Source of the DNA: Streptacidiphilus sp. P02-A3a | GTDB taxonomy: Bacteria; Actinomycetota; Actinomycetes; Streptomycetales; Streptomycetaceae | Assembly: GCF_014084105.1 (NCBI RefSeq) | Contig: NZ_CP048289.1 | Span: 7,511,922-7,575,921 of the forward strand | DNA length: 64,000 nt | Reading direction: 5' to 3' | In this document: positions 3,351 to 33,887 of the stretch, one piece after another | How the letters are laid out: the number at the start of each line of letters is the position of its first letter | How positions within the stretch are numbered: position 1 is the stretch's first letter | Program-made: the position numbers and the translations under genes | The notes under the pieces: generated by a model | Database searches by the model: none | Told to the model about the DNA's origin: nothing | The model's input: the letters and a program-made list of their open reading frames with translations, nothing else

Positions 3351-3368
3351 AGTGAGTCGAAAGCCCGG
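3351..3368 (-). promoter_or_regulatory. Phage promoter-like motif P1
   Basis: On the minus strand reads CCGGGCTTTCGACTCACT. It belongs to a family sharing GGCT..CGACTC(A/G)CT placed upstream of leftward phage genes. Here it precedes the sigma-factor gene by about 40 bases. Confidence 0.6.
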
Positions 3369-3660
3369 ACAGGGCTCATGGCGCGCTAAGGCCGTTGTGA
3401 CGTGGGCCACACATGGTTGAGGCCAGAGAACTGACCCCGTCCGGGATGTGTGCGTCGGACGGGGCAAAGCGCTTTGGCCTGTCGTTGCCGGAGCAACTTA
3501 GGCAGATCGGCGAAGGGGTCTCAACCGTTGATCGGACATGGAAACCACGGCGTGATCCAGGGTTGTAAATCTGGACCAAAGGCGGATTCCCCTCTCATCC
3601 CTTGGAATGAGAGGCGAGCCGCATTTATTGATCTTCGTAACCCTGGCGTGATGACGGAGA
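3366..3660. ncRNA. Structured intergenic region, possible non-coding RNA
   Basis: About 300 bases without a plausible gene but with three stable stems: CCCCGTCCG/CGGACGGGG (3435-3464, 12-base loop), GTTGC/GCAAC (near 3483-3496) and CCTCTCAT/ATGAGAGG (3591-3614, 8-base loop). The strand is undetermined. It lies between the sigma gene promoter and the two palindromes that end the polymerase unit. The segment near 3555-3575 looks like a tRNA anticodon arm but lacks the other arms. Confidence 0.3.
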
Positions 3661-3678
3661 GACCCTGAAGAACGAAAA

Positions 3679-3711
3679 CAGGGGACCTACTCACGGTGAG
3701 TAGGTCCCCTG
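3679..3711. repeat. Phage palindrome IR3 (16-bp arms)
   Basis: Core 3686-3704, central G; arms extended by CAGGGGA/TCCCCTG. It stands 13 bases from IR4, together forming a double element behind the DNA polymerase gene. Confidence 0.85.
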
Positions 3712-3723
3712 TGATCCATTCCA

Positions 3724-3745
3724 CACCTACTCACGTGAGTAGGTG
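3724..3745. repeat. Phage palindrome IR4 (11-bp arms, no centre base)
   Basis: Core 3726-3743 without a central base, flanked by CA/TG. It ends 5 bases before the stop codon of the leftward DNA polymerase gene. Confidence 0.85.
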
Positions 3746-3750
3746 CACGG

Positions 3751-5598
3751 TCAGTAGTCGGCCCCGTACAGAGAGCCCCAGGAACGGCCGCCAATCTCGG
3801 CCTCGGCGTCGATCGGGACGCCGTACAGCGGGAAGCGCATGCAGCGCTCGATCTCCCGGGCGATCTCTTCGGCCCGGTCGGCGGGCACGCTGGCCAACAC
3901 CTCGTCATGGATCGGCAGGCGCAGATACTCCGTGAGCCCGGCCTCGTCCATGTTGATCATGGCCTGCCCCAAGACGTCACGGGCCGTCGACTGACACGCG
4001 TAGTTCGTCACGGCGTACGTCCGGTCCCGGTCGAGCGGCAGCCGTCGGCCGGTCGCGCTCAGGTGGACCATGCCGGTAGCGCGCGCCTCACGCTGCCAGC
4101 GCGCGGACGCCCTCTTGATCTCCGGGTACACCCGGTCATACGCGGCCAGCGCCTCCCGGACCTCCGCCATCGGGGCACCGGTCTGCCGCTGGATGGTGTC
4201 GGCCCCGCCGCCGTACACCTTCCCGAAGCCGATCCCCTTCGCCAACTTCCGTTGTGCCTTGGTGAAGTTGGGACCGAACACCATGGCGGCGGTGAAGTCG
4301 TGCAGGTCACGCCCCCCTAGGATCGCCTCCTGCATCCGCTTGACGTCCGCCAGCGCGGCCAAGACGCGCATCTCGACGGCCGCAAAGTCGGCCGAGATCA
4401 TAACCTCGTCCTCGTCCGCCAGCAGGCAGCGCCGGATCATCTGGTCGGACGACGGAAGCGTCTGCAACGCCGGGCGAGTGATGGACATGCGGCCGGTGCG
4501 CGCTTGAAGCGTGTTGATCATCGGGTGGATTCGGCCGGCTGCGTCGACGGTGTCCAGGAACGTACTCGCGTACGTGGTCCGCCACTTGGATGCCCGCTTG
4601 GCCCGGAGGACCGCCGTAGCAAGGGGGTTGGGGGTCCGCACCCCCAACGGCTCCCACTGGAGCGACATGTCAGCCATCCCCAGCAGGACGGCCTTGTCGA
4701 CCTTGACGGCCCCGCTTGCGGTCGTCTCGGTCAGCGACTCCCCCATGCCCGCCAGTGCATCGGCGACCTGCGCAGTGGAGTTGACGTTGTCGACGCCGTA
4801 GCGGGCCGCCTCGGCGGCGAACTCCTCCGCCTCGGCCGCTAGGGCATCGTCCAGCCGTCGCGTGTGCTCGACGTCGAGCACGATCCCCCGGCGCTGCATC
4901 ACGGCACAGATGCGCGCCAACTCATGTTCGTAGTCCGACAGTTCGCGGCGCACGCCGAGGCGGGACAACTCGCGCCGCTCGATCGGCTCTATTCGCGCGG
5001 TCAGGATGACGTCGAGCCCGGCGTACAGGAGATAGGTGGGCTCCGTCAGCGGGATGCCCGCCCAGCCCGTCTCTTTGGTCAGGCCGAGGCTCCGGAAGAC
5101 CGCCGTCAGCCCGGCCTGAGTGTCCGGCGCGAGACGGTCAACCCAGTAGGCCGACAAGGGTTTCAGGCCGGTGCCTATGCCTCCCTCCTGCGGCTGGCGC
5201 GGGTCGATCAGCGCGGCCAGGATCTTCGTGTCCGTCGTGCGCGGGGCGAGCCATTCCAGCGGCACCCTGGCATGCCGGTCCAGGACCAGCCAATCGAACA
5301 TGGCGTTATGGATGAGCAGTCGGCGGATGCGCCGCAGCGCCGCCCGGACGGCCTCGGCGAACATGCCGCCCCACTCCCAGGGGATGACCCACGCCGTATC
5401 GGCGTCGCCGAACTGGACCAGCCGGAGCCGGTACCCAGGCGAGTAGATATCGAGCCCGGTCGTCTCCGTGTCGAGCGCGATCGGGCCGCGCCGGTCGGCC
5501 TCCGTGAGCCATGCGGCGAACAGGTCCAAGTCGTCGCGGTCCTGCGGGACATGAACCGTGACCAGGTCCCCCGCAATGGTGTGCCGATAGGTGAGCAT
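3751..5598 (-). CDS. Family A DNA polymerase with 3'-5' exonuclease domain, 615 aa
   Basis: Replicates phage DNA. Exonuclease domain (about 20-210) with DTETTG at 43-48 and the later HNAMFD (97-102) and YAGLDV (192-197) elements of the DEDD fold. The polymerase domain has motif A (ADFAAVEMR, 403-411), the motif B helix (RKLAKGIGFGKVYGG, 450-464) and motif C (IHDEV, 563-567). The length is that of a phage or Klenow-type enzyme without a 5' nuclease domain. ATG at 5598. It is separated from the upstream primase-helicase by palindrome IR5 and followed by IR4 and IR3. Gene content here resembles the early region of phiC31-type phages. Confidence 0.93.
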   Translation of the reverse strand: MLTYRHTIAGDLVTVHVPQDRDDLDLFAAWLTEADRRGPIALDTETTGLDIYSPGYRLRLVQFGDADTAWVIPWEWGGMFAEAVRAALRRIRRLLIHNAMFDWLVLDRHARVPLEWLAPRTTDTKILAALIDPRQPQEGGIGTGLKPLSAYWVDRLAPDTQAGLTAVFRSLGLTKETGWAGIPLTEPTYLLYAGLDVILTARIEPIERRELSRLGVRRELSDYEHELARICAVMQRRGIVLDVEHTRRLDDALAAEAEEFAAEAARYGVDNVNSTAQVADALAGMGESLTETTASGAVKVDKAVLLGMADMSLQWEPLGVRTPNPLATAVLRAKRASKWRTTYASTFLDTVDAAGRIHPMINTLQARTGRMSITRPALQTLPSSDQMIRRCLLADEDEVMISADFAAVEMRVLAALADVKRMQEAILGGRDLHDFTAAMVFGPNFTKAQRKLAKGIGFGKVYGGGADTIQRQTGAPMAEVREALAAYDRVYPEIKRASARWQREARATGMVHLSATGRRLPLDRDRTYAVTNYACQSTARDVLGQAMINMDEAGLTEYLRLPIHDEVLASVPADRAEEIAREIERCMRFPLYGVPIDAEAEIGGRSWGSLYGADY

Positions 5599-5617
5599 GG
5601 TCTCTTCTCATGCAAAA

Positions 5618-5646
5618 GGGGACCTACTCATCGTGAGTAGGCCCCC
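5618..5646. repeat. Phage palindrome IR5 (variant)
   Basis: Core 5623-5641 with one substitution (CCTACTCA-TCG-TGAGTAGG). Flanking GGGG/CCCC continues the arms past an A/C mismatch. It lies between the primase-helicase stop and the polymerase start, 27 bases after the stop. Confidence 0.8.
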
Positions 5647-5672
5647 GTGATCAACTGGGGTGGCGGCGCGGG

Positions 5673-8111
5673 TTATCGGGCGAAAATGCCCGGCCCCGGG
5701 GCGTCCGGCGACGCGTCGGCACGGCGGACGCCAACGAGGGCAATGCCGCGCTCGGTCTTCCGGCGCTGTAGTCCGCGTTCCTCCATGGCGTCGTAGAACG
5801 CCCGGCGGGTCCAGCGCTCACGACTCGGCAGGTTCTCCGCCTCGCACCAGTCCAAATAGGCACTGAATGCCTCGGAGCCGTTCAGGACGTGCTCATCCCC
5901 AGCGCGCTCAAGTACGCCCGGCAGGAAGCCCGCTAGGGCATCACTGGTCTCCCGGTACGCCCGCCCAGCGGCCGTGATGACGGACGGATCGGCGAGCCCT
6001 TCCCGGTGCCACTCGACGGCCCCTCGCACGGCCCATGCGGCAATGCCCTCCGCCTCGGCCAACAGCCGCATGTCGAGCCGGTGATCCCGCTCATGCGGTG
6101 CGAACCACCGCTGGAAAGGGATCATCTTCACTCGACGCCACAGACCCTCGTCCTGCCCCCGGAACCGAGGCTTGTGGTTGGTCGCCAGCAGCAGCAGGAA
6201 CGACGGCTTGAACTCGAAGAACTCTTGCCGGAGGAACCGCGCGGCAATGACGTCCTTGCCGGTCACGCGCTTGAGCACGCCCTCGGACATGGGCTTGCCG
6301 GACTCGCCCTCGGAGGCCAGGACGAGACGCGAACCCCTGAGCGCCGCAACATCGTTGGGGATTCCGCCGCTCGGCTTTTCCTCGAACGTCTGGAACGGCG
6401 TCGTCTTGCTGATAGCCCGGAAGACCGCCGTAAGCGTGTCCGTAAAGACCGATTTTCCATTCGCGCCCTTGCCCCACAACACGCCGAAACACTGCTCACT
6501 GGTGTGCCCCGTGATGCCGTAGCCGATCAACCGGCGCATGTAGTCAGGCAGTTCGGGATGAGCGGGGAACACCTCGGCGAGGAAGGACTCCCAGCGCGGG
6601 CACTGCGCGTCCGGCCGATAGTCCAAGTCAACGCAGTAGGTCAGCATGTCGTGTTGGCTGTGCTGGCGCAGTGCGCCAGAGCGCAGGTCCACCGTGCCGT
6701 TGCGGAAGGTCAGCGCGTCCGGGCGGGCGTCGAACTCGGCAGCGTCCACGTGCACTCCGGGCACGGACTGTAGCTCGGTCATCAGCGCGTCAATCCGGCT
6801 GGTCATGGTGAAGCCACGGGCCTCCGTGGTCTTCCCCGCCAGCACCAGCGCAGCGCCCATGCGGTGAATCTCCTGGCGCACCTTGACGCGGGACTTCTCC
6901 CACACACGGCCGGTCCACACGTAGTAGCCCAGCCCCGGCGCGTACTTGATTCGGCCGGCTGTCCAACTCACCAACGCGTGAGCGTTCATGGCGTCGGACT
7001 CGCCGTAGCGGGCGACCAGCCCGGCCAGGATGCGGCCCGCTTCGTCGCCCTCGGCCTTGGACACGGTGTCGGTGCCGGTGCGGGCGGTCAGCTCCGCCGA
7101 CAGGGCCGATGCCTTGGCCGTCTCCTCATCCTCAACGGGGCGGGCCGACTTGACGGCGCGGTGCAGGGACAGGGCGAACCCGTGCGGGTCGGACTCGCGC
7201 CACGCTGTGACGTCCTCGGCCCCGTCCGGCAGCGCCAGCGCGTAGGGCCGGATGCCGTGCGCGGACAGACCGGCCGCCAGCGCCGAGACGAACCCCCGCC
7301 CGGCCCGGTCGGCGTCGCCAGCAATGATGACCTGCGTCCCCCGGAGCCCGGCCGCCAGCTCGGCCACCAGCTCCGGCGAGGCGACCAGCGACGCGCCCCG
7401 GACGGCCACGGCGTCATAGCCGACGGCGGCGACGGTGAGCCCGTCCCCCGGCCCCTCGGTCACGATGGTTACCCCGTAGCCGCCCTGCCCCCTGAACACG
7501 CCGTAGGCGGCCCAGTGGTGCCCCTGCGGATTGCTCAACGACAGCCACCGGCCGGGGCAGTTGCCCGAAAGGTCCCGCCCCTGCAACCCGCGCGGCTGGC
7601 CGTCGAACCCGAGCAGGGGCACGGTGACGCGCGGGTAGCTGGTGAACGCCCGGGACAGGTACGGCATCGGCGGGCACGGCACGCCCGGCGCGTCCACCCC
7701 GATCAGCAGTTCGGACGCGTCACCCTCGCGCAGGCCGAAGCGGTCGAGCAGGTAGCCGCGCGCCCGCTTGGCGACGTCGCTGTCATAGTCGGTCAGCGCA
7801 AGGGCCGTTGCGTCCACGTAGGCGGCCAGCGCGGCGAGCGGCGCGGGGCCGACCAGCGCGGGGCGACCGGACGGGACTACGCGGCCGTCGCCGGTCACGT
7901 TGAACAGCGCGGACCAGTCGAGCCCGACGGCAGCGATGACGTCGGCCGTCGAGCACCCGGCGCGGCAGGTGAGCCGTGCCTTGCCGTCGTCGCCCCGCCA
8001 GATGCGGAGCGAGGGGCGCGAGTCCGGATGAGCCGGGCACAGCGCGAGGTACCCCCCGTCCTGAACCTCGGACACGTCCCCGAACTTGGCCAGCAAATCT
8101 GTAAGCGTCAT
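5673..8111 (-). CDS. Phage primase-helicase (P4 alpha/D5 type), 812 aa
   Basis: Combines primer synthesis and DNA unwinding. An N-terminal zinc-binding part (CPAHPDSRPSL at 25-35, CRAGC at 49-53) is followed by a Toprim domain (VTEGPGDGL 217-225; AGDADRAG 264-271), a D5_N-like region, and an SF3/P4-type helicase with Walker A GKGANGKS (547-554) and the downstream SEGESGKPMSEG and ATNHKP elements. The ATG at 8111 follows a GGAGG site 8 bases away; an in-frame start at 8129 lacks one. Motif P2 stands about 27 bases upstream. The same unit continues through palindrome IR5 into the polymerase gene. Confidence 0.9.
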   Translation of the reverse strand: MTLTDLLAKFGDVSEVQDGGYLALCPAHPDSRPSLRIWRGDDGKARLTCRAGCSTADVIAAVGLDWSALFNVTGDGRVVPSGRPALVGPAPLAALAAYVDATALALTDYDSDVAKRARGYLLDRFGLREGDASELLIGVDAPGVPCPPMPYLSRAFTSYPRVTVPLLGFDGQPRGLQGRDLSGNCPGRWLSLSNPQGHHWAAYGVFRGQGGYGVTIVTEGPGDGLTVAAVGYDAVAVRGASLVASPELVAELAAGLRGTQVIIAGDADRAGRGFVSALAAGLSAHGIRPYALALPDGAEDVTAWRESDPHGFALSLHRAVKSARPVEDEETAKASALSAELTARTGTDTVSKAEGDEAGRILAGLVARYGESDAMNAHALVSWTAGRIKYAPGLGYYVWTGRVWEKSRVKVRQEIHRMGAALVLAGKTTEARGFTMTSRIDALMTELQSVPGVHVDAAEFDARPDALTFRNGTVDLRSGALRQHSQHDMLTYCVDLDYRPDAQCPRWESFLAEVFPAHPELPDYMRRLIGYGITGHTSEQCFGVLWGKGANGKSVFTDTLTAVFRAISKTTPFQTFEEKPSGGIPNDVAALRGSRLVLASEGESGKPMSEGVLKRVTGKDVIAARFLRQEFFEFKPSFLLLLATNHKPRFRGQDEGLWRRVKMIPFQRWFAPHERDHRLDMRLLAEAEGIAAWAVRGAVEWHREGLADPSVITAAGRAYRETSDALAGFLPGVLERAGDEHVLNGSEAFSAYLDWCEAENLPSRERWTRRAFYDAMEERGLQRRKTERGIALVGVRRADASPDAPGPGIFAR

Positions 8112-8137
8112 GGTGTGGCCTCCTCTCACCAGTCGTG

Positions 8138-8155
8138 AGTGAGTCGAAAGCCTGG
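8138..8155 (-). promoter_or_regulatory. Phage promoter-like motif P2
   Basis: Minus-strand CCAGGCTTTCGACTCACT, identical to P1 at 17 of 18 bases. It lies 27 bases upstream of the primase-helicase ATG. Confidence 0.6.
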
Positions 8156-8156
8156 T

Positions 8157-8233
8157 TACTCTCTGTACATCCCGCGGGGGTCCGACATGTCCGCTTCTGT
8201 CAGCATTGGCGGCTTGCCAGCCTCGGGGCTTTG
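8157..8233 (+). repeat. Conserved block A (inverted partner at 13521-13595)
   Basis: A 45-base core (TTACTCTC through CCGCTTCTG) is about 90 percent identical to the minus strand of 13552-13595, and weaker similarity continues through GGCTTGCC-GCCTCG. Four of the five core differences fall at third positions if read in frame as LLSV(H/Y)PAGVRHVRFC. It is non-coding by annotation, between a nuclease gene and motif P2. Confidence 0.6.
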
Positions 8234-8234
8234 A

Positions 8235-8771
8235 TCACTCCCAGTAGTCAACGGCCCGCACGTCGGCCAGCAGCGCGGCGAACGCCTCGACGTCCGTGGA
8301 CAGGTACCAGCGGCCGGTATCCAGACTCCGCAGCGAGGGGCTGAAGGCGTACCGCTCGACCATCTGTCGGGCCGTCAGGCCGAGGATCAGGCGGACGCGG
8401 GTCCACGTGCGCACGGCGAAGAACACCCGGCCAGCGCGAGCGCCCTTCCCCCGCGTCTTGTGCACCGCGATGCCGTACGGGTACCCGGCGTGCTTCGCCT
8501 CGACGTGGGCCTGCCGCAGCCATGCCGGGACCGCCGGAGCCTTGACGTCCTTGCACTCCAGCACGAACGGCACGGCGTGCACGTCCCCCACGTCCCGCAC
8601 ACCCTCTTGCGCCGCACGGCGGATGTTCATCGGATCGGCCGGCCGCAGGAACGGCGTTACGGCGTCCCGGGTACGCCAGTCTCGCGGGTGATACAGCCCC
8701 AACTCCTCATTGAGGTAGTCGCGCACGGCGGATTCCCACGCGGTGCCGCGCGCCTTGTTCGGGTTGCTCAT
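8235..8771 (-). CDS. Resolvase-like PD-(D/E)XK nuclease, 178 aa
   Basis: Likely a Holliday-junction-resolvase-type or related restriction-fold nuclease acting in phage recombination or replication. N-terminal WESAVRDYL, a later GDVHAVPFVLECKD (D...ExK pattern, about residues 66-79) and QAHVEAKHAGYPYGIAVHK form the expected catalytic fold. ATG at 8771 with GAAAGGA upstream. It sits between the RDF cluster and the primase-helicase and is preceded by palindrome IR6. The nuclease fold is clear; the exact substrate is inference. Confidence 0.7.
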   Translation of the reverse strand: MSNPNKARGTAWESAVRDYLNEELGLYHPRDWRTRDAVTPFLRPADPMNIRRAAQEGVRDVGDVHAVPFVLECKDVKAPAVPAWLRQAHVEAKHAGYPYGIAVHKTRGKGARAGRVFFAVRTWTRVRLILGLTARQMVERYAFSPSLRSLDTGRWYLSTDVEAFAALLADVRAVDYWE

Positions 8772-9115: not shown

Positions 9116-9278
9116 GGGGGATGCTCCCGTCTTCGTCGTCAACGCCGAACCGGCGGCGGCGCTCATGGATCACAGCGGCCCGATACTCCGTGGGCACGTC
9201 CCACAGCGGGGCGCGGACCACGTCGTCAGACACGGTCCGCAGCCACGCGGCGGAGTAGTCGCAGCGCTCAGCGCTCAT
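9108..9278 (-). CDS. Small phage protein, 56 aa
   Basis: ATG at 9278 lies inside the last codons of the RDF gene (11-base overlap), and the TAA at 9108 overlaps the TTG start of the next gene, so it fits tightly in a coupled three-gene unit. The protein has an aromatic N-terminal part (CDYSAAWLRTV), a PLWDVPTEYRAAVIHERRRRFG helix-like stretch and an acidic tail. No family recognised. Tight packing and overlaps are the evidence that it is real. Confidence 0.6.
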   Translation of the reverse strand: MSAERCDYSAAWLRTVSDDVVRAPLWDVPTEYRAAVIHERRRRFGVDDEDGSIPLG

Positions 9279-9966
9279 CGGCCACAGCCGAGTTGTACGA
9301 CTTGAGAACCTTGATCACGGGCTTCCGGTACGACACGAACCGGCCCGCCTTGGTGGTGTACTCGACCAGCTCAAGCGTGAGGCTGGCCAGCGCCTCACCC
9401 TCGACGCGGGACAGGGCCTCTTCGGCTTCGTGCAGCACCTCGGCGAGGGTCCACGCGCCGCTCTGGAAACGGAACTTGCCTAGGTCGTAATCCTCGGCGA
9501 GGCGGAAGGTCACGCTGATGGCGGGCTTCGGGCCAGCGAAGCGCTTAGCGCGTTCCTTGCGCTCGGCCAGCGTGGCGGGGCAGCCGCAGCGCATCCCCTT
9601 GTCCTCGTCCGGACTCAGGAACTCGACCCCGTCGCAGTGGTGAACGAGCTGGTTGCGGTTCCAGAGCTTCATGTCCGAGTAGATCGCCCCGGGGCCGTCG
9701 AGCACGACCAGGACCGACGGCGCGTCAGTCTCGATGTCGATGTAGTTCTCAGACGTCGACTCCGTCTCGACCGGGCGTCCGCCGAACAGCTGCGCGACGG
9801 CATCGGCGACCTCCCGGTCACCGGTCGAGAAGCGCCAGTTCTCAAGCGACACCGGCATGTTGTCGACGGCCTTGCCGGAGTGGACCCGGCCGACGGTGTC
9901 GTCCGCGAACGTGCTGCGGGTCTTCGGCTTCGCGTCGGGGTCGGTCTCGAAAATGCGCATGGCCAT
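9268..9966 (-). CDS. Recombination directionality factor, phiC31 gp3-like, 232 aa
   Basis: Converts the serine integrase from integration to excision by binding it directly. The family signature is present: N-terminal RIFETDPDAKPK, a central cysteine cluster (HHCDGVEFLSP, then CGCPATLAERK), the FRFQSGAWTLAEVLHEAEEAL segment and a C-terminal LELVEYTTKAGRFVSYRKPV. Length is close to that of phiC31 gp3. ATG at 9966 with AGGAGAG 8 bases away. It sits in the replication region about 25 kb from the integrase gene, as in phiC31-type phages. Motif P3 lies about 130 bases upstream, so the gene probably has its own promoter. Confidence 0.82.
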   Translation of the reverse strand: MAMRIFETDPDAKPKTRSTFADDTVGRVHSGKAVDNMPVSLENWRFSTGDREVADAVAQLFGGRPVETESTSENYIDIETDAPSVLVVLDGPGAIYSDMKLWNRNQLVHHCDGVEFLSPDEDKGMRCGCPATLAERKERAKRFAGPKPAISVTFRLAEDYDLGKFRFQSGAWTLAEVLHEAEEALSRVEGEALASLTLELVEYTTKAGRFVSYRKPVIKVLKSYNSAVADER

Positions 9967-10094
9967 AAGTGCGTCTCTCCTGGAGTCAGTTAGGGAGGGA
10001 CGAGCGGGCGGGTATCGGCCGTGAGGCGGGGGCGCAACTGCGCCGCTTCCGCTGTGGGCCGGGCATTACACCCGCTCGCCCCCTTACTCGGCTC

Positions 10095-10112
10095 TAGCGA
10101 GTCGAATGCCTA
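10095..10112 (-). promoter_or_regulatory. Phage promoter-like motif P3
   Basis: Minus-strand TAGGCATTCGACTCGCTA. Its first three bases are the stop codon of the RecB-like nuclease gene. It reads toward the RDF gene with a leader of about 125 bases. Confidence 0.55.
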
Positions 10113-10946
10113 CTTCGCGCGGCGCTCGGTGCCGGTCACCAGACGGCCCGCGCTCTGCGCAATGGCCCGACCGATGACGGTCTTTGAGGTCTCGCGGTCC
10201 CAGTCGAAGACGCGCCGCAGCGTCAGGAAGACATCGAAAATCTCCTGATCGGCGCGCACGGGCTTGAACGCCCACTGGTCGGGGGTGATGTGCAGGACGG
10301 CCGCGCCGTCGAGCTTGGGCATGGGCAGCGCCGTGCCGTCGGCCGTGATGATCCGGTCAGCGTGGGAGTACGCGGACATCTGTAGGGCCACGTCCGGGTA
10401 CGTCGACTTGGACGTCTTCCAGTCGCACATGATCTGCGCGTCCTCGCCCTGCTGGTCCGGCTTGCCGTCCTCGCCGAGGCGGACCGACAGGATGCCGTCG
10501 AAGCTTCCGGCGTACTTGTGCGTGTCGCTCCACGCGACGTCTTCGGCGCGTATGAGGGTCGGCTGCACCCGGTCCAGGAACTCAGCGAAGTGCACCCGGT
10601 ACGGCTCGATGTCCGGGTGGACCCGGCCGACATACTCGCCACGGATCATCCGCTCGAACAGGTCGTGGGCCTGACTACCGATGTCGGCACGGATGTTGGT
10701 GTAGCGGCGGGCAGCGCCCTTTAGGTAGTCGACGGCCCCGGCGCGGTCACGGTCGGCCATCTGCTGCACGAACGGCAGGCTGTCGACGGCCAGCTCAGCA
10801 ACCATCTTGGCCTGCCAGTAGGCCAGGAACGGCTTCGGCAGCATGCCGAGAATAGACGTCACCCCGGGGTACTTGATCGCCGGGTTCTCCGGGTCGATGT
10901 AGAAGCGCGAACCACCGCGCTGGATGGTGCGGACGGTACCGGCCAT
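10110..10946 (-). CDS. RecB/Cas4-type PD-(D/E)XK exonuclease, 278 aa
   Basis: Single-strand or double-strand DNA exonuclease for phage recombination. The catalytic core is visible: YAGSFDGIL (about 149-157), then CDWKTSKSTYPDVALQMSAY, giving the D-(D/E)xK and Q..Y motif IV. An upstream GSQAHDLFERMI helix carries the conserved His. ATG at 10946 with AAGGGGG. It is preceded by a 376-base non-coding stretch containing the 93-bp element E1, and its stop codon is part of motif P3. RecB-nuclease fold is well supported; polarity and partner are not visible. Confidence 0.8.
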   Translation of the reverse strand: MAGTVRTIQRGGSRFYIDPENPAIKYPGVTSILGMLPKPFLAYWQAKMVAELAVDSLPFVQQMADRDRAGAVDYLKGAARRYTNIRADIGSQAHDLFERMIRGEYVGRVHPDIEPYRVHFAEFLDRVQPTLIRAEDVAWSDTHKYAGSFDGILSVRLGEDGKPDQQGEDAQIMCDWKTSKSTYPDVALQMSAYSHADRIITADGTALPMPKLDGAAVLHITPDQWAFKPVRADQEIFDVFLTLRRVFDWDRETSKTVIGRAIAQSAGRLVTGTERRAK

Positions 10947-11058
10947 GTGTGCCCCCTTCGGGCTGTGCGGGCTGTCACATGGCTCTAGTGGGCCGTGAGC
11001 CCGGCCGAGGGTCGCCGACGGTGCAGAGGGGCCGCCAGGGGCCGCCAAGGGGGCACGG

Positions 11059-11151
11059 CTGACGGACTGACGAATCGGGGGTCGGATTCGGCTTGCCTAT
11101 AGGTTTTCTTACGGGAAACAGAAAAGTAGGTCTGAAACGTCAATCCGTCAG
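11059..11151 (-). promoter_or_regulatory. 93-bp repeated element E1
   Basis: Bounded by inverted repeats CTGACGGACTGACG (11059-11072) and CGTCAATCCGTCAG (11138-11151), each containing TGACG twice. The interior carries the conserved minus-strand core TAAGAA-nnn-CTATAGG-nAAnCCGAATC. A second copy of exactly the same length lies at 33916-34008. It is about 110 bases upstream of the RecB-like gene start. The remainder of 10947-11322 shows no gene. Confidence 0.6.
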
Positions 11152-11322: not shown

Positions 11323-12495
11323 TCAGATGGTCAGCCGGAGCGCTGCCAGCGCGTCAGCGGCCTTCTGCATGTCCGCGCGGAGCGCCTTGCGCTGGACATC
11401 CCCCTTGACCTTCGGGGCGTTCCCGGTCAGCTTCTCGATCAGCTCCGTGATCTTCTCCAAGTTGTTGAACGCACGGGGCGTGCTCTCCCCCTTGTCGTCG
11501 CCGTCGTCGCCAGCGTCGCCGCTGTCGTCCGCTCCGCCCTGGTCGTCCTGGTCGTCCTCGGCCTCCGGGTCGAACGAGACGCGCTCGCCCTCGACGGCCG
11601 CCAGCGCGGCGACCACGGCCGCGCCCTCCTTCTTGTCCTCGAACGTGCCCGCCAGTGCCTTCCGCTCCGCCTCGGCGGCGGCTTCCTCCAGCGCGATCAG
11701 CTTCTTTGCCGCGCGGGCTTCCCGCATCAGCTCGGCGCGGCCCTTCCGGGGAAGGTCGTGGTAGGTGAACACGGCCTCGGACGGGGTCAGGTCCGGGTGC
11801 GCGGCAACGGCGGCAGCGAAGTGTTCCTCGACCTCTTCCGGGCTGTGGTCCAGCGCCCGGACGTAGTCGACCAGGACATCCGGGATGACGTTCTGCACAG
11901 CCTTCTGCAACTTCTCGTAGGCCGTCCGGGTGTCCTCGCTACGGTCCTCCGACTGCTCAAGAGCCGAGATGAACATGGCCCGGCTGGTCATCTTCGCCGG
12001 GTTGCCGACGGCCTTAAGGTCCGGCGCTCCGTTGTGGATCAGGTGCACGCGGGCGTCCACCAGGATGGACGCAATCTCGCGGGCCAGGGTGTTGCCAGCG
12101 GCAAACTGCTTGGCACCCTCAGCGATCTTCGCCGCGCCCGCCTCAATCAGCTCCGGCATACCTGCAACGGCCGCATAGTCGGTCGTGTCCGCAACCGTAA
12201 CCAGCTCGCTACTCTCCGTAGCATCAGCCTCGGCATCCCCGGCGGGGGCCGCGTCCTCGGCGACGGCCGGGGCAGCGGCCTGCACCTCCCCAAGCGCCAA
12301 GGTGACCGCCTCGCGCTGTGCCACCGGGATCGTCTTGATCAGCCGCGCAGCCTCGGCGGCCCACGTAGCCGCCGCTTCCGCGTCGCCCCCAGCGTTGGCC
12401 TGCTCAACGTTGGCGATGGCCGCGTAGGCAGCCTTGACCTTCTCCTCTGCGGTCTGCCTCTTCGCGGCGGGGGCGGCCTTCTTGGCGGTGGCCAT
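11323..12495 (-). CDS. Ala-rich phage early protein of unknown function, 390 aa
   Basis: Unrecognised. A Lys/Ala-rich N-terminus (ATAKKAAPAAKRQ) looks like a basic tail, followed by an Ala-rich helical region with low-complexity stretches, a central part with LIHNGAPDLKAVGNPAKMTSRAMF, a putative coiled coil (LMREARAAKKLIALEEAAAEAERKA), an Asp/Gly acidic block near 315-340 and a C-terminal helix. ATG at 12495 with GAAGGAGAG. It lies between the dNMP kinase and the RecB-like nuclease. A structural or DNA-binding accessory of replication is possible; nothing proves it. Confidence 0.6.
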   Translation of the reverse strand: MATAKKAAPAAKRQTAEEKVKAAYAAIANVEQANAGGDAEAAATWAAEAARLIKTIPVAQREAVTLALGEVQAAAPAVAEDAAPAGDAEADATESSELVTVADTTDYAAVAGMPELIEAGAAKIAEGAKQFAAGNTLAREIASILVDARVHLIHNGAPDLKAVGNPAKMTSRAMFISALEQSEDRSEDTRTAYEKLQKAVQNVIPDVLVDYVRALDHSPEEVEEHFAAAVAAHPDLTPSEAVFTYHDLPRKGRAELMREARAAKKLIALEEAAAEAERKALAGTFEDKKEGAAVVAALAAVEGERVSFDPEAEDDQDDQGGADDSGDAGDDGDDKGESTPRAFNNLEKITELIEKLTGNAPKVKGDVQRKALRADMQKAADALAALRLTI

Positions 12496-12590
12496 GTTGC
12501 TCTCCTTCGTCGTTGCTTGAAAAACCGTACATTGACGAACGTAGCGGATGCGGAACTTGGCGCGCAAGCGTTTCCGAGAGCTTCCCGGCC

Positions 12591-12613
12591 GACCTACTCA
12601 CGGTGAGTAGGTC
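12591..12613. repeat. Phage palindrome IR7 overlapping a stop codon
   Basis: Core 12593-12611, central G, 11-bp arms. The TGA inside GTGAGTAGG (minus strand, 12600-12598) is the stop codon of the dNMP kinase gene, so the palindrome encodes the last residues TYSP. Confidence 0.85.
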
Positions 12614-13233
12614 CCCGGAAGACACGAAAGCCCCCCCATGCCAGCGGCACAGTGGGGGCAGTCGGGGCAGGCCAGGGCGTCAGCTTGGGCCGCTAGATCG
12701 GCAAGGGTGCCGGTATTGCGGATGACTCGGTCGGCAGGATAGTCGTCAAGCTCGGTCTCGCTCTGATGCTGCACGCCCGTCAACTTCCGTGGACTGAACG
12801 GCCGTTCGACGCGGACGAGAATAAATCCCCTGTCACGCAGGGCGGTTGCCTCGTTGAGATACCGGCAGTCCGTGATGACCACGGGCATATTCCAGCGGTC
12901 GGCCTCGGCGACCAGGTCGAGCGCCCGCCGGAGCCAATAGTCCGGGGTGAGGTCCCGCACGCCCTGCCCGAACCGTTGCAGGGTGCGACGCACCTCGGGG
13001 ACGCGCTCCTTCGCACCGTCCCATCCCCAGCGCCGGACGACGTCGGACAGGCGGACGTCGAGATACGCGCAGCCGGCCGATTCGACGCTCACGATGGGGT
13101 CGAGCCGGAGCGCGGCGTCTTTCAGCGGCGCGGCGAACGCGACCGGGGTGTAGCCGTGAGCCGACTGGAGCCGGGCGGCAACGGAGTCCTTCCCGCTGCG
13201 CGCCCGGCCCATGAGTGCGATGTGGTGCGGCAT
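12598..13233 (-). CDS. Deoxynucleoside monophosphate kinase, 211 aa
   Basis: Phosphorylates dNMPs released from host or scavenged DNA to feed phage replication. N-terminal P-loop GRARSGKDS (9-17), then the AAPLKDAA segment, the WLRRALDL and VVITDCRYLNEA parts typical of phage dNMP kinases, and a RVERP element. A CPDC/CAAG cysteine group lies at the C-terminus. Start ATG at 13233 with an AGGG site. Its last codons and stop are supplied by palindrome IR7. Motif P4 is about 40 bases upstream, suggesting it starts an early transcription unit. Confidence 0.85.
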   Translation of the reverse strand: MPHHIALMGRARSGKDSVAARLQSAHGYTPVAFAAPLKDAALRLDPIVSVESAGCAYLDVRLSDVVRRWGWDGAKERVPEVRRTLQRFGQGVRDLTPDYWLRRALDLVAEADRWNMPVVITDCRYLNEATALRDRGFILVRVERPFSPRKLTGVQHQSETELDDYPADRVIRNTGTLADLAAQADALACPDCPHCAAGMGGLSCLPGTYSP

Positions 13234-13271
13234 GGCGACCCTTCATAGGTGGCGTGCTGTCGCACCCCTCC

Positions 13272-13289
13272 TAGCGAGTCGTCAGCTCA
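13272..13289 (-). promoter_or_regulatory. Phage promoter-like motif P4
   Basis: Minus-strand TGAGCTGACGACTCGCTA. Its TGA is the stop codon of the holin gene. It points at the dNMP kinase with a leader of about 35 bases. Confidence 0.6.
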
Positions 13290-13484: not shown

Positions 13485-13520
13485 GTGACTACCTTTCAGG
13501 TACTACGGATTGTGACGACT

Positions 13521-13595
13521 GAGGCGAGGCCGGCAAGCCACTATCTTGGGCAGAAGCGGACGTGACGGACCCCCGCGGGATATACGGAGAGTAAT
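13521..13595 (-). repeat. Conserved block B (partner of 8157-8233)
   Basis: Minus-strand copy of block A. In this copy the shared reading LLSVYPAGVRHVRFC ends with a TAG three codons later. It lies between the endolysin stop and the holin start, so it is in sense orientation to transcription here but antisense in copy A. Confidence 0.6.
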
Positions 13596-16719: not shown

Positions 16720-17255
16720 TGCGGAGTCTCCTCAACAGCCATGAGGATCGGGTCAGTCGCGTCTACGGTGCCGTCCGGCGTGGTGTCGTCCACCTGCGGC
16801 GAGTCGGGCACGTTGTAGAGCGCCCCCGGCGAGACGTACACCCGGCCACCGCTGGCGGCGAGTGCCTGCACGGTGATGGTCGCCGTGTCCCCGTAGTCGA
16901 GCCCCATGGGGGCCGAGAATGCGCACATGCCGAACGTCAGCGCGGTGCCGGAGACGCTGGCAGCGGTGCCGACAGGGACGCCGTTGACTAGCACCTGGAC
17001 CGAGCCGCCGACGGTCGCCCCGAAGGTGATCGCGGCTTGCAGGTTGGGCAGTTGAACAAGCCCGCTGCACTGGTAGATCGTCGTCCACGCGGTTGCCGTG
17101 GTGGACGGCCACGTAGTCGAGTCCTGCGGCCGGAGCGCCGGGAACGGCAGCGACGCGACGACCGCCCCGCCCTTGCTCCCGGACAACTCCCGGACGGCCG
17201 CCTCAAGTCGCCGGATTCGGTCGCTGTAGTCCTGCGGCACGGTGGCCATCGTCAT
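16716..17255 (-). CDS. Minor tail-region protein, 179 aa
   Basis: A coiled-coil-like start (YSDRIRRLEAAVRELSG) is followed by a beta-rich domain (TAWTTIYQCSGLVQLP, ITVQALAASGGRVYVSPGALYNVP) with no recognised catalytic residues. The start overlaps the previous stop (ATGA) and the end overlaps the next start, so it belongs to a compact four-gene tail unit. A small adhesin or baseplate component is most likely. Confidence 0.6.
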   Translation of the reverse strand: MTMATVPQDYSDRIRRLEAAVRELSGSKGGAVVASLPFPALRPQDSTTWPSTTATAWTTIYQCSGLVQLPNLQAAITFGATVGGSVQVLVNGVPVGTAASVSGTALTFGMCAFSAPMGLDYGDTATITVQALAASGGRVYVSPGALYNVPDSPQVDDTTPDGTVDATDPILMAVEETPQ

Positions 17256-19027: not shown

Positions 19028-19045
19028 GTTGAGCGGCACCCCTTT

Positions 19046-21531: not shown

Positions 21532-21538
21532 GGGTCGC

Positions 21539-21559
21539 ACCTACTCACGGTGAGTAGGT
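21539..21559. repeat. Phage palindrome IR9 (10-bp arms)
   Basis: Core 21540-21558, central G. It lies between the tape measure stop (21575) and the distal tail ATG (21531), and on the minus strand its right arm provides AGGTG for the latter. Confidence 0.85.
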
Positions 21560-21574
21560 CAGCGGTTGCCGACA

Positions 21575-24274
21575 TCAGCCCCTCGCTTTCATCTGCCACG
21601 CAAGCTCGCGGGCCACCTGTGCGGGCGTCATCGCGCCAGCGTGGAAGTTGTCAATCCGCACCGCCGGAGCGGCAGTTGCCCGTGCGCCGACGGCAACGGG
21701 TTCGGCCGGCGAGTAGACCGCCGACGCGCCGACCCAGCGGGGCAGGTCGGTAGTGATGCCGCTCAACTGCGCTCGCAGCGTGGGCACCTGGCTCTTGATG
21801 CCCTTCATGAACCCCCGCATGACCAACTTGCCGTTGGGCGTCAGGATTCGGGCGTCGAGCGGGGCAGGCCCCTTCCAATCCGTGAGCTTGGAAGTGATGT
21901 TGCCCAGGGTGGACTTCAACTCGCCGACCTTGGACGTGATGCCGGAAATGAACCCGTCGAGCAGGGACGCTCCGGCGTGCATCAGCGTCGAGCCCAGATT
22001 GCCCACGGCAGACAGTGCGCGGCCCGGGAGCCCGGCCAACCAGGACACGGCCGACGTGACGCCGTGGCCGATGGCGTTGCCCAGCGAACTAGCGGCCTCG
22101 GTTGCCTTGTTCTTGACGTAGGAACCGAACGTCACCAGCGCAGAGAGCCCGCGCGCACCCATCCCGGCGAGCCAGGAAATGGCCTCGTTGACGCCGTGCG
22201 CGACGATGCCGCCGAGCTTGCCGAACACCCCGGCCATGAACGAGAACCAGCCGGAGACGGCCTGCTTCGCAGCCGACCACGCCCCGGAGAAGTTCCCCGA
22301 CAGCAGGTCCGTTACGGCCGTCAGCGCGGGCACCACAAACGAAGTGATGTACTTCGCCAGCACGCCCGCCAAGATCGACGCAAGTTGGCCGATCAGCGAG
22401 ATGATCGGCAGCAGGACCGGCATCAGCGCGCTAAGCAGCGCGACGACCAGCTGACCGAGTGACTGGAGCAACGGGGCCGTGGCAACGAGCAGTTGGCCGA
22501 AAGCGGCGCCAATCTTGGTCAGCGCCGGAGTCAAGGCAGTGAGCAACTGCGACGCCAACTTGACGACAATGCCAATCAGTTGCGCCGCTACCAGAAGCAA
22601 CGGAGCTAGCAGGGACGGCAGTTGTGCCAGAATCGGGCCAAGCGCGCCCATCACCAACGTGACGATCTGGCCTATCAGCCCGCCGACCTGGACGAGCACC
22701 GGCCCTAGCGCGCCAGCGAGTTGGGCAACGAGGGTGGCGACGATCGGCAGCAGTACGGCTAGCGCCGAGGACAGGGACGCGACCACGGGGGCCAGCGCTG
22801 CGCCCAGTTGGCCGGCCAGCTTGGACAGGGCCGGACCGATCACGGCTACGGCTGACTGGAGCGGCCCGGCCAGCGCCTGGACCACGGCGGACAGCAGCGG
22901 CAGCAGCGCGGCCAGGGCAGCGCCCAGGACGCCGGACACGACGTGACCGATGGCGGCCAGCGTTGTGAACAACGCCGTGAAGGTCGCCTGTGCCTGCGGC
23001 GTGGCCGTCAACCGTGCGGCTGTGGCGGTCAGTTGCGACAGGACGGAGAGGAACCCGGACCCGGCCGTGACTGCGGGGCCGAAGACGTTGCCGACCGTCC
23101 GGAGGATGTTGCCGATGGTCCCGGCGAACTGCTGCACCAGTGCCACGGCTGCGTTGATGGTGCCGGTCATCGCGCCGGAGGCGAACATCCCCGACAGCTT
23201 GGCTGACAGGGCGTCGACGCCCTTGCCGACACCGGCCGTCAGCTTGTCGAAGGCCGGGGCCGCAGCGTTGCCAATGGCGACGACGCCCGCGAGGACCTTG
23301 CCGGGGACGTCCTTCAGGTTGGCCAGCGATGTGCCGACCTTCCCCAGGACAGAAGACAGTTGGCCCGTCTTGGCCAGCTCGGTCACCGCGCCGGCCGTTG
23401 AGCGCGCCATGGCGTTCAAGCTCGCCGCCGTCGCCCCCAAGCCCGTGTTCAGTGCCGGGATGGCGGCCGTCGCCATGGTCGTCATGGAGTCGCCGAGCCC
23501 GGCGAACAGGCGAGCCTGTAGGGACTGCTGCACGGCGTGCCACGCCGGGCCAAGGGCCTGCGTCGCCTTGACGAACTGCTGCGCCGCCGGAGCAAGGGCG
23601 GCCATCGCGTCGGCGTCGCCCTTAAGAGCGTCCGAGACGCCCGACGTACCGATCTTGATGGTCGCCATGGCCGACCCCATGGCCAGCATGGCGGGCACCG
23701 CCACAGCGGCAGCCGGAGCCATCTGCGCCAGACTGCCGACCAGCCCCGCCAGCGACGGCAGCGCCCCGGCCATCGAGCCGAACTTGCCGATGGTTCCCAC
23801 GAGTCCGGCGAACGAGCGCTCTGCCCCGGCAGCGTCACCGGCCAGCGCGCCAACGCCCCGGCGAGCGTCGCGCACTCCCGCCGAGTTGACGTCCATGTGC
23901 ACCGGCACGACCAGCGGAGGGCGGATGGTCGCCAACTCCCGACGGAGCCGCATCACCTCACCCGGAGCGATCCTCAAACTGACCGCGACGGTCGGCATGT
24001 TGGCTGACAGTCGCGCCCGCAGGTCCGTACGGAACGCGCGGGTCACGTCCGGGACCACCTGAACCTTCAGCTTGGCGCGGGCGGCAACCCGGTCGAGATC
24101 CGCGCGGAGCCGGGCGGAGAATTCCCCCAGGTCCGGCAGGATGCTGACCTTGATGTGTGCCCGGCGCTCGATCCGGTCTAGGTCCCGCTGTAGCTGTGTG
24201 GCGAACCCAGATGTGTTCGGCAGCACGCGAATTGATAGCCGCCCGACCTCCCGGCCGCCAGGACTTCCGGCCAT
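21575..24274 (-). CDS. Tail tape measure protein, 899 aa
   Basis: Sets tail length and carries DNA-injection functions. It is the largest phage protein, almost wholly helical, with many Ala/Leu/Val-rich repeats and several hydrophobic stretches in the middle third (LAALLPLLSAVVQALAG and related), and a C-terminal part with ITSKVGELKSTLGNITS. Roughly 900 residues would correspond to a tail near 130 nm at about 1.5 angstrom per residue. ATG at 24274 with GAGGGGGTG. It follows the frameshifted tail chaperone pair, the standard siphovirus order. Confidence 0.9.
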   Translation of the reverse strand: MAGSPGGREVGRLSIRVLPNTSGFATQLQRDLDRIERRAHIKVSILPDLGEFSARLRADLDRVAARAKLKVQVVPDVTRAFRTDLRARLSANMPTVAVSLRIAPGEVMRLRRELATIRPPLVVPVHMDVNSAGVRDARRGVGALAGDAAGAERSFAGLVGTIGKFGSMAGALPSLAGLVGSLAQMAPAAAVAVPAMLAMGSAMATIKIGTSGVSDALKGDADAMAALAPAAQQFVKATQALGPAWHAVQQSLQARLFAGLGDSMTTMATAAIPALNTGLGATAASLNAMARSTAGAVTELAKTGQLSSVLGKVGTSLANLKDVPGKVLAGVVAIGNAAAPAFDKLTAGVGKGVDALSAKLSGMFASGAMTGTINAAVALVQQFAGTIGNILRTVGNVFGPAVTAGSGFLSVLSQLTATAARLTATPQAQATFTALFTTLAAIGHVVSGVLGAALAALLPLLSAVVQALAGPLQSAVAVIGPALSKLAGQLGAALAPVVASLSSALAVLLPIVATLVAQLAGALGPVLVQVGGLIGQIVTLVMGALGPILAQLPSLLAPLLLVAAQLIGIVVKLASQLLTALTPALTKIGAAFGQLLVATAPLLQSLGQLVVALLSALMPVLLPIISLIGQLASILAGVLAKYITSFVVPALTAVTDLLSGNFSGAWSAAKQAVSGWFSFMAGVFGKLGGIVAHGVNEAISWLAGMGARGLSALVTFGSYVKNKATEAASSLGNAIGHGVTSAVSWLAGLPGRALSAVGNLGSTLMHAGASLLDGFISGITSKVGELKSTLGNITSKLTDWKGPAPLDARILTPNGKLVMRGFMKGIKSQVPTLRAQLSGITTDLPRWVGASAVYSPAEPVAVGARATAAPAVRIDNFHAGAMTPAQVARELAWQMKARG

Positions 24275-32969: not shown

Positions 32970-33082
32970 GGTTCGTCACCTCCTGTCATCGACCTTGGAA
33001 CCCGTACAGAATTCGAGCTGCTATACGCTTGCGGGGGGTGAGAGCGCGCGCGGGGAGGCTCCCCCCAGGTCGCGCCGAAATC

Positions 33083-33394
33083 TCAGCCGGAAATCTGTCC
33101 AGGATGCGGACGTTCCGGGCGCGCTCGGCCGGGGCGCGGACGCGCGGCGCGCGCTGCGTGGCCTTCGGCAGTGGACTTGCGTGCGTGATGCCAGCGACAC
33201 AAGAGCTGCAAGTTGGTCAAGCTGTGATCATCACCAGCGATGATGTGGTCAACGTCCGTGCCCGCCTCGGTGCACCGTGCGCCGTCGGTCAGGACAGCGC
33301 AGCAGCGGTAGCCGTCACGGGCCATCACAGTCCGCCTGATGGCCTTCCAGTCGGACGGTAGACGTGAGCGCCGGTCGCTCCCTTGCCACGCCAC
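33083..33394 (-). CDS. HNH endonuclease 2, 103 aa
   Basis: HNH fold: ARDGYRCCAVLTDGARC (zinc cysteines), DVDHIIAGDDHSLTNLQLLC and HHARKS (DH...N...H). The GTG at 33394 follows AGGGGG. HNH proteins beside terminase often act with it during cos packaging. A Pro/Arg-rich tail follows the fold. It is the second of two adjacent HNH genes. Confidence 0.82.
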   Translation of the reverse strand: MAWQGSDRRSRLPSDWKAIRRTVMARDGYRCCAVLTDGARCTEAGTDVDHIIAGDDHSLTNLQLLCRWHHARKSTAEGHAARAARPRPGRARPERPHPGQISG

Positions 33395-33402
33395 ACGGCC
33401 CC

Positions 33403-33681
33403 CTAGAGCAGCAGCGTGCCGTAACCCATGTCGTCGCGCGTCTTGGCGCGGTGACACGGTCGGCACAGTGGTTGGACGTTGACCGTGACGTCGTCGCCAC
33501 CGTGCGCAAGGGGCACGATGTGATCAACGTCGAGAGCGGACGGGGGCGCTTCAATCCCGCAGCCCGCGCACGTGCCCCGGCCAGTCAGGCGGAGCGCTCG
33601 ACGCAGGGTGGCGGCGGCATCGTGGCCGCGCGCAAGCACGTCGGGGCGGCGTCGCCGAGCCAGGACAGAGACAGTGGGCAC
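33403..33681 (-). CDS. HNH endonuclease 1, 92 aa
   Basis: Short HNH protein: CAGCGIEAPPSALDVDHIVPLAHGG, VNVQPLCRPCHRAKT, with both zinc CxxC pairs. The GTG at 33681 uses AGG from palindrome IR12 as ribosome site. The gene opens the late operon behind tandem motifs P7 and P8. Confidence 0.82.
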   Translation of the reverse strand: MPTVSVLARRRRPDVLARGHDAAATLRRALRLTGRGTCAGCGIEAPPSALDVDHIVPLAHGGDDVTVNVQPLCRPCHRAKTRDDMGYGTLLL

Positions 33682-33685
33682 GGGA

Positions 33686-33706
33686 ACCTACTCACAGTGA
33701 GTAGGT
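33686..33706. repeat. Phage palindrome IR12 (10-bp arms, central A)
   Basis: Core 33687-33705, the only copy with central A. It lies between motifs P7/P8 and the first late gene, 5 bases before its GTG, not behind a stop codon like most copies. Confidence 0.85.
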
Positions 33707-33841
33707 CCGGGACCTACGGAAGTTGGGCCCGTGCGGGCTCAACCGGCCGGAGAGTGGACCGGGAGCCGCGCACGAGTGAGGGACGGTACTCGGCCCGCCG
33801 AATCCCAGTGGGGTGCGCGGTAACCCGCCCTCATACGTATC

Positions 33842-33859
33842 TAGTGAGTCGTAAGCCTG
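33842..33859 (-). promoter_or_regulatory. Promoter-like motif P7, T7-like
   Basis: Minus-strand CAGGCTTACGACTCACTA. The 12 bases TACGACTCACTA are identical to the T7 RNA polymerase promoter core. It lies 161 bases upstream of the first late gene and 28 bp from P8. Confidence 0.65.
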
Positions 33860-33869
33860 CCCAGTGCCC

Positions 33870-33887
33870 TAGCGAGTCGTCAGCCTG
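33870..33887 (-). promoter_or_regulatory. Promoter-like motif P8
   Basis: Minus-strand CAGGCTGACGACTCGCTA, tandem to P7 at 28-bp distance, upstream of the late operon. Confidence 0.62.

Follow-up and report, generated by a model that had tools for sequence, protein, structure and literature searches.

Predicted phage-specific promoters of a phiC31-related prophage in Streptacidiphilus, with a phage-encoded sigma factor as their probable reader

The prophage in the window, as we call the whole 64,000-nt stretch of Streptacidiphilus sp. P02-A3a analysed here, is a relative of phage phiC31, and the motif family that it carries is real. We consider these repeats to be, quite probably, phage-specific promoters that would be read by the prophage's own sigma factor, with its domains sigma4, sigma3 and sigma2 on successive parts of the element. 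A sequence comparison of about 100 related phages points to a joint, module-wise divergence of promoter and sigma factor. The early promoters of phiC31 have been studied experimentally and are known as active in the lytic cycle only. To our knowledge phiC31-type promoters are phage-specific, and we know of no factor that reads them; the comparison names a likely one. Among the papers listed in literature searches, PMC5311408 and PMC11302927 (on Samy, a phiC31-like prophage of S. ambofaciens) included, we recognised none that names a reader.

The repeat family and its phiC31-type setting

Seven minus-strand copies of the motif had been claimed in an earlier note on this DNA, and all seven are present. 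Five match GGCTNNCGACTCRCT exactly (starts at 3351, 8138, 20384, 33843 and 33871) and two with one mismatch (10096, beginning GGCA, and 13273, beginning AGCT); four of the seven starts had been given one base too low. On both strands of the 9.33-Mb genome there are five exact matches, all within the prophage, and 27 with one mismatch; of these 27, only those at 10096 and 13273 belong to the prophage. When three mismatches are allowed, 69 matches are found versus 66.1 expected, a count reached in 38 of 100 shuffles. This is chance level, and the signal therefore lies only in the exact and one-mismatch copies.

The predicted promoter blocks, all on the minus strand like the genes that they precede, bear out the genes assigned to them before. 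The same sequence, GGCTTTCGACTCACTCAC, stands upstream of the sigma gene (block 3348-3365; gene 2395-3309, the ortholog of phiC31 gp12 and proposed reader, PHROG 15865 at E 8.9e-87) and of the primase-helicase gene (block 8135-8152; gene 5673-8111, ortholog of phiC31 gp9a with 62% identity, start ATG at 8111 taken from the sequence), where the ribosome-binding site starts 29 nt past the first G. The block GGCATTCGACTCGCTAGA (10093-10110) lies upstream of the recombination directionality factor (RDF, gp3; 9268-9966, PF18897 at E 3e-13), and AGCTGACGACTCGCTAGG (13270-13287) upstream of the deoxynucleoside monophosphate (dNMP) kinase, the ortholog of phiC31 gp52 (12598-13233, ORF family 6). Ahead of the late genes two predicted promoters follow in tandem, GGCTGACGACTCGCTAGG upstream (33868-33885) and the T7-like copy GGCTTACGACTCACTAGA downstream (33840-33857). 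An eighth, degenerate copy with two mismatches (10987-11001, predicted block 10984-11001, GGCTCACGGCCCACTAGA) precedes the exonuclease gene gp1 (10110-10946, PHROG 298 at E 1.3e-56, start ATG at 10946 again from the sequence); in phiC31 a degenerate copy likewise precedes gp1. The copy at 20384 (block 20381-20398, GGCTGACGACTCACTAGT) forms codons of a 451-aa ORF (20185-21540), within which it lies and which encodes a tail protein carrying a Dit-type domain. This copy may be a promoter or a coding coincidence, and it was left out of the covariation tests. The minus strand further encodes a DNA polymerase (3751-5598, phiC31 gp11 ortholog, ORF family 1) and a phiC31-type repressor c (11323-12567, start uncertain, PF25746 at E 6.8e-42).

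Five of the genes (primase, repressor, RDF, sigma factor and dNMP kinase) belong to the phiC31 family, and both phiC31 and phiBT1 (Lomovskayavirus) have a counterpart motif ahead of the same genes. The prophage repeat stands in one orientation before gp52, gp1, gp3, the primase gene, gp12 and the late genes, which is the early-promoter arrangement of the phiC31 family; gene positions, orientation, the core CGACTC and the location of gp12 are all shared. The motifs themselves differ, being GGCT-nn-CGACTC(A/G)CT in the prophage, GGTTGCCGACTCCCTT in phiC31 and mostly (A/G)GT(C/A)ACCGACTCCCTT in phiBT1. A phiC31-related system, which the earlier note had kept as its alternative, fits these observations, and a search in related phages, set beforehand as a check, finds the motif upstream of orthologous genes. 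That the repeats form a family of phage promoters is very probable; a kinship with the T7 promoter, to which a resemblance had been noted, is unsupported.

Sequence comparison makes the gp12 ortholog the likely reader of the motif. The gp12 family profile matches sigma factors, also when searched against solved structures, and a gp12 model matches sigma structures; with phiC31 gp12 alone, a sigma factor is not among the matches listed by phmmer for solved structures. Pfam finds sigma70 region 2 in 49 of 61 gp12-family members (E 0.01), and regions 3 and 4 are found in the family as well. The prophage protein's own Pfam matches are all under the cut-offs, that to region 2 (E 0.019) included, and phiC31 gp12 lies above this cut-off.

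Divergence of the motif with gp12 and its domains

Motifs were searched at 108 of 109 loci (L082 was excluded, its upstream stretch being too short) and kept at the 94 loci that exceeded shuffled regions by at least one match. For the prophage itself the de novo search scored no better than shuffles (12.40 versus 12.60), so its seven sites, with the copy at 20384 left out, were entered by hand, giving 95 loci. An initial search with loose mismatches found mainly coding repeats and was dropped. Seventy-eight of the 95 loci have gp12 and four control genes, and 66 remained after dereplication; the main tests include three phiSASD1-like loci whose register is doubtful, and the filtered-set retest excludes them.

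Across the 66 loci, motif distance follows gp12 distance (rho 0.681, partial 0.614; 0/500 permutations). The corresponding partials of the control genes are 0.03 for primase (148/500), 0.115 for polymerase (23/500), -0.059 for gp3 and -0.109 for gp1. If only gp1 and gp3 sites are used (62 loci), gp12 has 0.597 (0/200), gp1 -0.008 and gp3 -0.045. Partials of 13 other ORF families, given gp12 and primase, range from -0.24 to 0.17, and gp12 keeps 0.57-0.78. The polymerase residue is small, with 0.188 for the gp1 site alone (0/200) and 0.111 for gp52, gp1 and gp3 sites together (6/200). Palindromes served as positive control (38 loci), with 0.283 for repressor c (0/300) and 0.051 for gp12 (75/300). 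The prophage has 12 of them, which we take to be of the repressor-operator (CIR) type: one unstranded palindrome at 33680-33709 and 11 others with cores starting at 571, 1955, 3686, 3726, 5623, 8804, 12593, 16461, 21540, 25626 and 30903. The consensus of the locus with the gp12 nearest to that of the prophage (L030, 58%) agrees at 15 of 18 motif positions, and that of the locus with the nearest primase (L097, 72%) at 8 of 18. In nearest-neighbour prediction gp12 beats the other genes, and the preference for the matching domain is weak. Of the distant loci searched (nine, Arthrobacter and others), L114 alone matched gp12, and only weakly.

The links resolve by domain. In the main set, the upstream positions 0-6 go with sigma4 (0.303), the middle positions 7-11 with sigma3 (0.562) and the downstream positions 12-17 with sigma2 (0.206), each with 0/1000; at gp12 identities below 70% (45 loci) the values are 0.339, 0.607 and 0.264, each with 0/500. 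In the filtered sets sigma3 contributes a little to positions 12-17 (0.090-0.133; 27, 11 and 11 of 500), and among 25 loci lacking the A8-C9 core, compared without permutations, the pattern blurs. Natural relatives that differ mainly in one sigma domain have their motif change mainly in the matching part. The motifs of L064 and L065 (primase 90%, sigma2 93%, sigma3 92%, sigma4 32% identity) disagree at six of the seven upstream positions, at one of the five middle ones and at none of the six downstream ones, with one tie; those of L060 and L073 (sigma2 87%, sigma3 95%, sigma4 35%) disagree at four upstream, one middle and one downstream position. L058 and L168 (primase 95%, sigma4 85%, sigma3 63%, sigma2 32%) are identical at positions 0-11 and read GCTAGC versus GACAGA downstream. 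About four of the seven sigma4-swap pairs count as independent, and one of these (L081/L102) is altered in the middle too; seven pairs differing in sigma2 have a mean downstream change of just 0.11. Per-residue covariation gives mixed columns, and sigma3 column 182 is the sole plain one in the table: with lysine there, the middle part starts with GA in 37 of 38 loci, with methionine in 0 of 18, 14 of which start with CT. These phages supply a natural series of sigma factors with matching predicted promoters that allows sigma2, sigma3 and sigma4 preferences to be told apart. Some close relatives in the series differ chiefly in a single domain and in the corresponding part of the promoter.

A hold-out set, based on 2 of 8 scans of viral_contigs, was drawn from 80 gp12 loci, 31 of them on previously unused contigs; 29 were kept and yielded 16 motifs, 6 weak ones and 7 cases with too few regions. 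The test comprised 15 loci (L189 was left out, having no primase overlap), with motif register set by similarity to the first set. The only link that replicated here is that of sigma3 with positions 7-11 (0.705, 0/500). Positions 0-6 go with sigma3 (0.369, 1/500) and not with sigma4 (-0.199), and sigma2 with positions 12-17 is unreplicated at 0.063 (146/500). Prediction in the hold-out set is right at 86-90% of positions from gp12 versus 71-84% from primase, a modest gain.

Geometry of the element and other readings

Within loci, no conservation was seen upstream of the block (54 loci with at least five sites), so that the canonical sigma70 arrangement, in which the -10 is preceded at about 17 bp by a -35 element, was not found. 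Between the parts tracked by sigma4 and sigma2 the distance is about 11-12 bp, half of what is usual. At positions 25/26 there is a pyrimidine-purine step together with a drop in thymine. Ribosome-binding sites start as early as 25-29 nt past the first G, the four lowest rows (25-27 nt) having doubtful sites or starts; because they start so early, the block was ruled out as a -35 box.

We propose that the gp12 ortholog (2395-3309) directs the host RNA polymerase core to the replication genes, the late genes and its own gene, the last of which would constitute positive feedback. The element would measure about 16-18 contiguous bp and lack a separate -35 box, with sigma4 reading positions 0-6, sigma3 positions 7-11 and sigma2 positions 12-17. 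Transcription is predicted to start about 26 nt past the first G, and the block would therefore span about -26 to -9, with sigma4 some 12 bp nearer to sigma2 than usual. On balance we lean towards a more general idea: sigma4, sigma3 and sigma2 would read neighbouring stretches of a single 18-bp promoter element that has no gap, sigma4 would be about one helical turn nearer to the start than it is when bound to a -35 box, and phages would acquire new specificities by swapping sigma domains with one another, their promoters changing accordingly at all sites.

The unusual length and gaplessness of the element, and a sigma4 near -23, would also be accounted for if gp12 acted with a second phage activator on the upstream part and sigma4 kept its usual -35 place. 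The hold-out set, which taken by itself has no sigma4 link, points the same way. We nevertheless judge this unlikely, since the upstream part follows sigma4 in the main set, nothing is conserved upstream of the block, and, in the stretches analysed around the primase, not one of 13 further ORF families tracks the motif as gp12 does. An operator or mRNA element in place of a promoter is very unlikely: the copies lie on one strand (at least three minus-strand matches in 22 of 108 loci), the motif parts follow the sigma domains in order, and the step and thymine drop at positions 25/26 fit a promoter, although some copies seem, judged by eye, able to pair with downstream bases.

The copy at 33842 had been claimed to match the T7 core over 12 bases, and does so at 33842-33853; with one mismatch allowed, two T7-like sites are seen versus 0.06 expected from shuffles. 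The geometric part of the idea holds as well, as the prophage motif, like a T7 promoter, is short, contiguous and near the predicted start, with no conserved -35 box. However, the T7 letters are lost in many relatives: of 95 consensus motifs, 11 agree with the T7 core at 10 of 10 bases and 31 at 5 or fewer, because of which the likeness looks coincidental. The motif moreover follows a sigma70-type protein, its likely reader, and a Pfam scan of the larger proteins, other than primase and DNA polymerase, revealed no RNA polymerase domain; a genome search with PF00940 gave no match, but neither did its control, so that this search carries little weight. We regard it as extremely improbable that the repeats are T7-type promoters for a single-subunit RNA polymerase, whether that enzyme is encoded in the prophage or in another part of the genome.

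Comparison with known sigma systems

Extended -10 sigma70 promoters, sigma54 promoters of the -24/-12 type and the SPO1 gp28 and T4 gp55 systems are known for comparison with a promoter read by gp12. With a start at position 26, the sigma2 part would occupy about -14 to -9 and the sigma3 part about -19 to -15, as in extended -10 promoters; the phage element, in contrast, extends uninterrupted to -26, and this extension tracks sigma4. Should this spacing be right, sigma4 would occupy an unusual place within the initiation complex. Two contact zones about 12 bp apart recall sigma54, yet gp12 matches sigma70-family proteins and the sigma54 family is absent among the matches listed. SPO1 gp28 and T4 gp55 are likewise phage-encoded sigma factors serving the phage's own genes, whereas SPO1 middle promoters keep an ordinary spacer and T4 late promoters have a -10 box only.

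A phage promoter family of the phiC31 type

The repeated block of about 18 bp, whose positions are numbered 0-17 from the first G, occurs on the minus strand in all seven copies described in the earlier note, five of them exact to GGCTNNCGACTCRCT and those at 10096 and 13273 carrying one mismatch each. Exact copies in the whole 9.33-Mb genome number five, every one in the prophage, and one-mismatch copies 27, of which 2 are in the prophage; with three mismatches allowed the count is no better than chance (69 seen, 66 expected). Six copies lie before leftward genes as proposed (sigma gene, primase, RDF, dNMP kinase and, as a tandem pair, the late genes), the seventh (20384) falls within a tail gene, and an eighth, degenerate copy precedes the gp1 exonuclease, as is likewise seen in phiC31.

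The prophage primase shares 62-67% identity with the primases of phiC31, phiBT1, Rowa and others, its repressor matches the phiC31 repressor family, and phiC31 counterparts exist for its RDF, exonuclease, dNMP kinase, DNA polymerase and sigma factor. Ahead of the same genes phiC31 has the counterpart motif GGTTGCCGACTCCCTT and phiBT1 mostly (A/G)GT(C/A)ACCGACTCCCTT; hence, the motif of the window is another variant of the phiC31-type phage promoter. It is nearly certain that the motif family represents phage promoters of this type, which the earlier note had named as the alternative to its T7-like reading.

A motif search in relatives, also suggested there, covered 109 loci (103 fetched primase-centred loci, phiC31, phiBT1, Rowa, phiSASD1, Tutumahutu and the window). 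Of the 108 loci searched, 94 yielded a repeat ahead of orthologous genes that beat shuffled regions by at least one match. The window's own repeat search was not above shuffles (12.40 against 12.60), and the window was entered by hand with its seven verified sites, giving 95 consensus motifs. The layout is common to all phages, and the motif version is particular to each phage. The resemblance to the T7 promoter did not extend to many of these relatives: the T7 core is matched at 10/10 in 11 of the 95 consensus motifs and at 5/10 or less in 31. Among the larger proteins that were scanned, none showed an RNA polymerase domain.

gp12 as the probable reader of the motif

The phage protein gp12 is a sigma70-type factor on several grounds: it belongs to PHROG 15865, 49 of 61 family members contain Pfam region 2, its profile matches RpoS across 14-264, and for its model (pLDDT 89.5, pTM 0.61) the structures listed as similar are sigma factors or complexes containing them. 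The gp12 protein of the window (2395-3309, minus strand) lies below Pfam cut-offs. gp12 was detected in 94 of the 109 loci. Arthrobacter phages (L110-L113 and L016) have motif-like repeats ahead of the same genes, but the gp12 queries used had no match in them; in Tutumahutu a DNA-binding protein occupies the gp12 place.

Motif distance follows gp12 distance in 66 dereplicated loci (rho 0.681; partial correlation 0.614, reached by 0/500 permutations), with control-gene partials of 0.03 for primase, 0.115 (23/500) for polymerase, -0.059 for gp3 and -0.109 for gp1. With gp1 and gp3 sites only, the motif still tracks gp12 (0.597, 0/200) and neither gp1 nor gp3. A small polymerase residue appears in some site subsets, for example 0.188 (0/200) for the gp1 site alone, and 13 other ORF families contribute little. 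As a control of the method, repressor-type palindromes of 38 loci track the repressor (0.283, 0/300) and not gp12 (0.051, 75/300). In 29 further hold-out loci a motif was obtained in 16, and the nearest gp12 predicted 86-90% of positions per part correctly, compared to 71-84% for the nearest primase. gp12 is likely to be the reader of the motif.

Sigma domains and promoter geometry

With four genes and the remaining two sigma domains controlled for, motif positions 0-6 track sigma4 (0.303), 7-11 sigma3 (0.562) and 12-17 sigma2 (0.206), each with 0/1000, while the six off-diagonal values range from -0.064 to 0.083 (largest sigma2 with 7-11, 41/1000). The three parts were chosen by eye while nine stretches were tried; sliding three-base windows give the same domain order. 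The pattern persists when the doubtful loci resembling phiSASD1 are removed and when gp12 identity is under 70%, where sigma3 also contributes slightly to 12-17 (0.133, 11/500), and blurs among 25 loci without the A8-C9 core. When sigma3 column 182 is lysine, the middle part starts with GA in 37/38 loci; when it is methionine, in 0/18.

Natural swaps were also compared. Seven pairs (about four independent cases) in which sigma2 and sigma3 are each at least 70% identical but sigma4 less than 55% have a mean difference of 0.44 upstream, against 0.10 in the middle and 0.05 downstream; L064 and L065 differ at 6/7, 1/5 and 0/6 positions, respectively, and L060 and L073 at 4, 1 and 1. Seven pairs differing in sigma2 change most downstream, by just 0.11. 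The later-collected L189 resembles L064 in sigma2 and sigma3 (94%, 93%) and L058 in sigma4 (93%), and its five sites start with GGTAACC like L058 and finish with GACAGA or GACAGG like L064. L168 and L058 (primase 95%, sigma4 85%, sigma3 63%, sigma2 32% identical) have motif positions 0-11 in common and diverge beyond. Among the 15 hold-out loci usable in the domain test, sigma3 was the sole link replicated: positions 0-6 track sigma3 (0.369, 1/500) and not sigma4 (-0.199), and sigma2 with 12-17 gives 0.063. In the pooled 78 loci, with primase as sole control gene, all three links reach 0/500. A colinear code from sigma4, sigma3 and sigma2 to successive motif parts seems likely, a strength we lowered because two of the three links did not appear in the small hold-out alone.

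Within-locus conservation spans about position -2 to 20 in 54 loci, with none upstream of the block. A pyrimidine occupies position 25 in 75% and a purine position 26 in 89%; thymine is scarce from 26 onward, even at gp3 sites distant from the start codon, and also at 17-20, and ribosome-binding sites start as early as 25-29. Transcription therefore probably starts near position 26. Regardless of start site, the centres of the sigma4- and sigma2-tracked parts are about 11-12 bp apart, whereas the corresponding distance in ordinary sigma70 promoters is about 23, and we lean slightly towards a displaced sigma4.

Other elements of the prophage

Upstream of the gp1 and late promoters lies an element of about 93 nt with inverted ends CTGACG...CGTCAG (11059-11151 and 33916-34008, minus strand); in phiC31 the corresponding two places hold a similar pair (21649-21768, 40428-40547). 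An inverted pair of 93 nt with 74% complementarity (8156-8248 and 13502-13594) has one copy immediately upstream of the primase promoter. Twelve repressor-type palindromes, ACCTACTCAC-(one base)-GTGAGTAGGT, are spread over 571-33709, with an odd centre in 10 and an even one in 2, and the flanks of several lengthen the pairing. Two genes situated about 2.6-4.5 kb beyond the window's left edge (L010:15460-17423), one for a JmjC/cupin protein and one for an HTH protein, are host-like in appearance, so the prophage may not extend far past that edge. The late promoters adjoin a serine recombinase (34873-36441, minus strand; PF07508, PF00239), probably the integrase. A tail-region protein (17252-19039, minus strand) has a poly-gamma-glutamate hydrolase domain (PF05908, E 3.1e-54) and perhaps degrades a host surface polymer.
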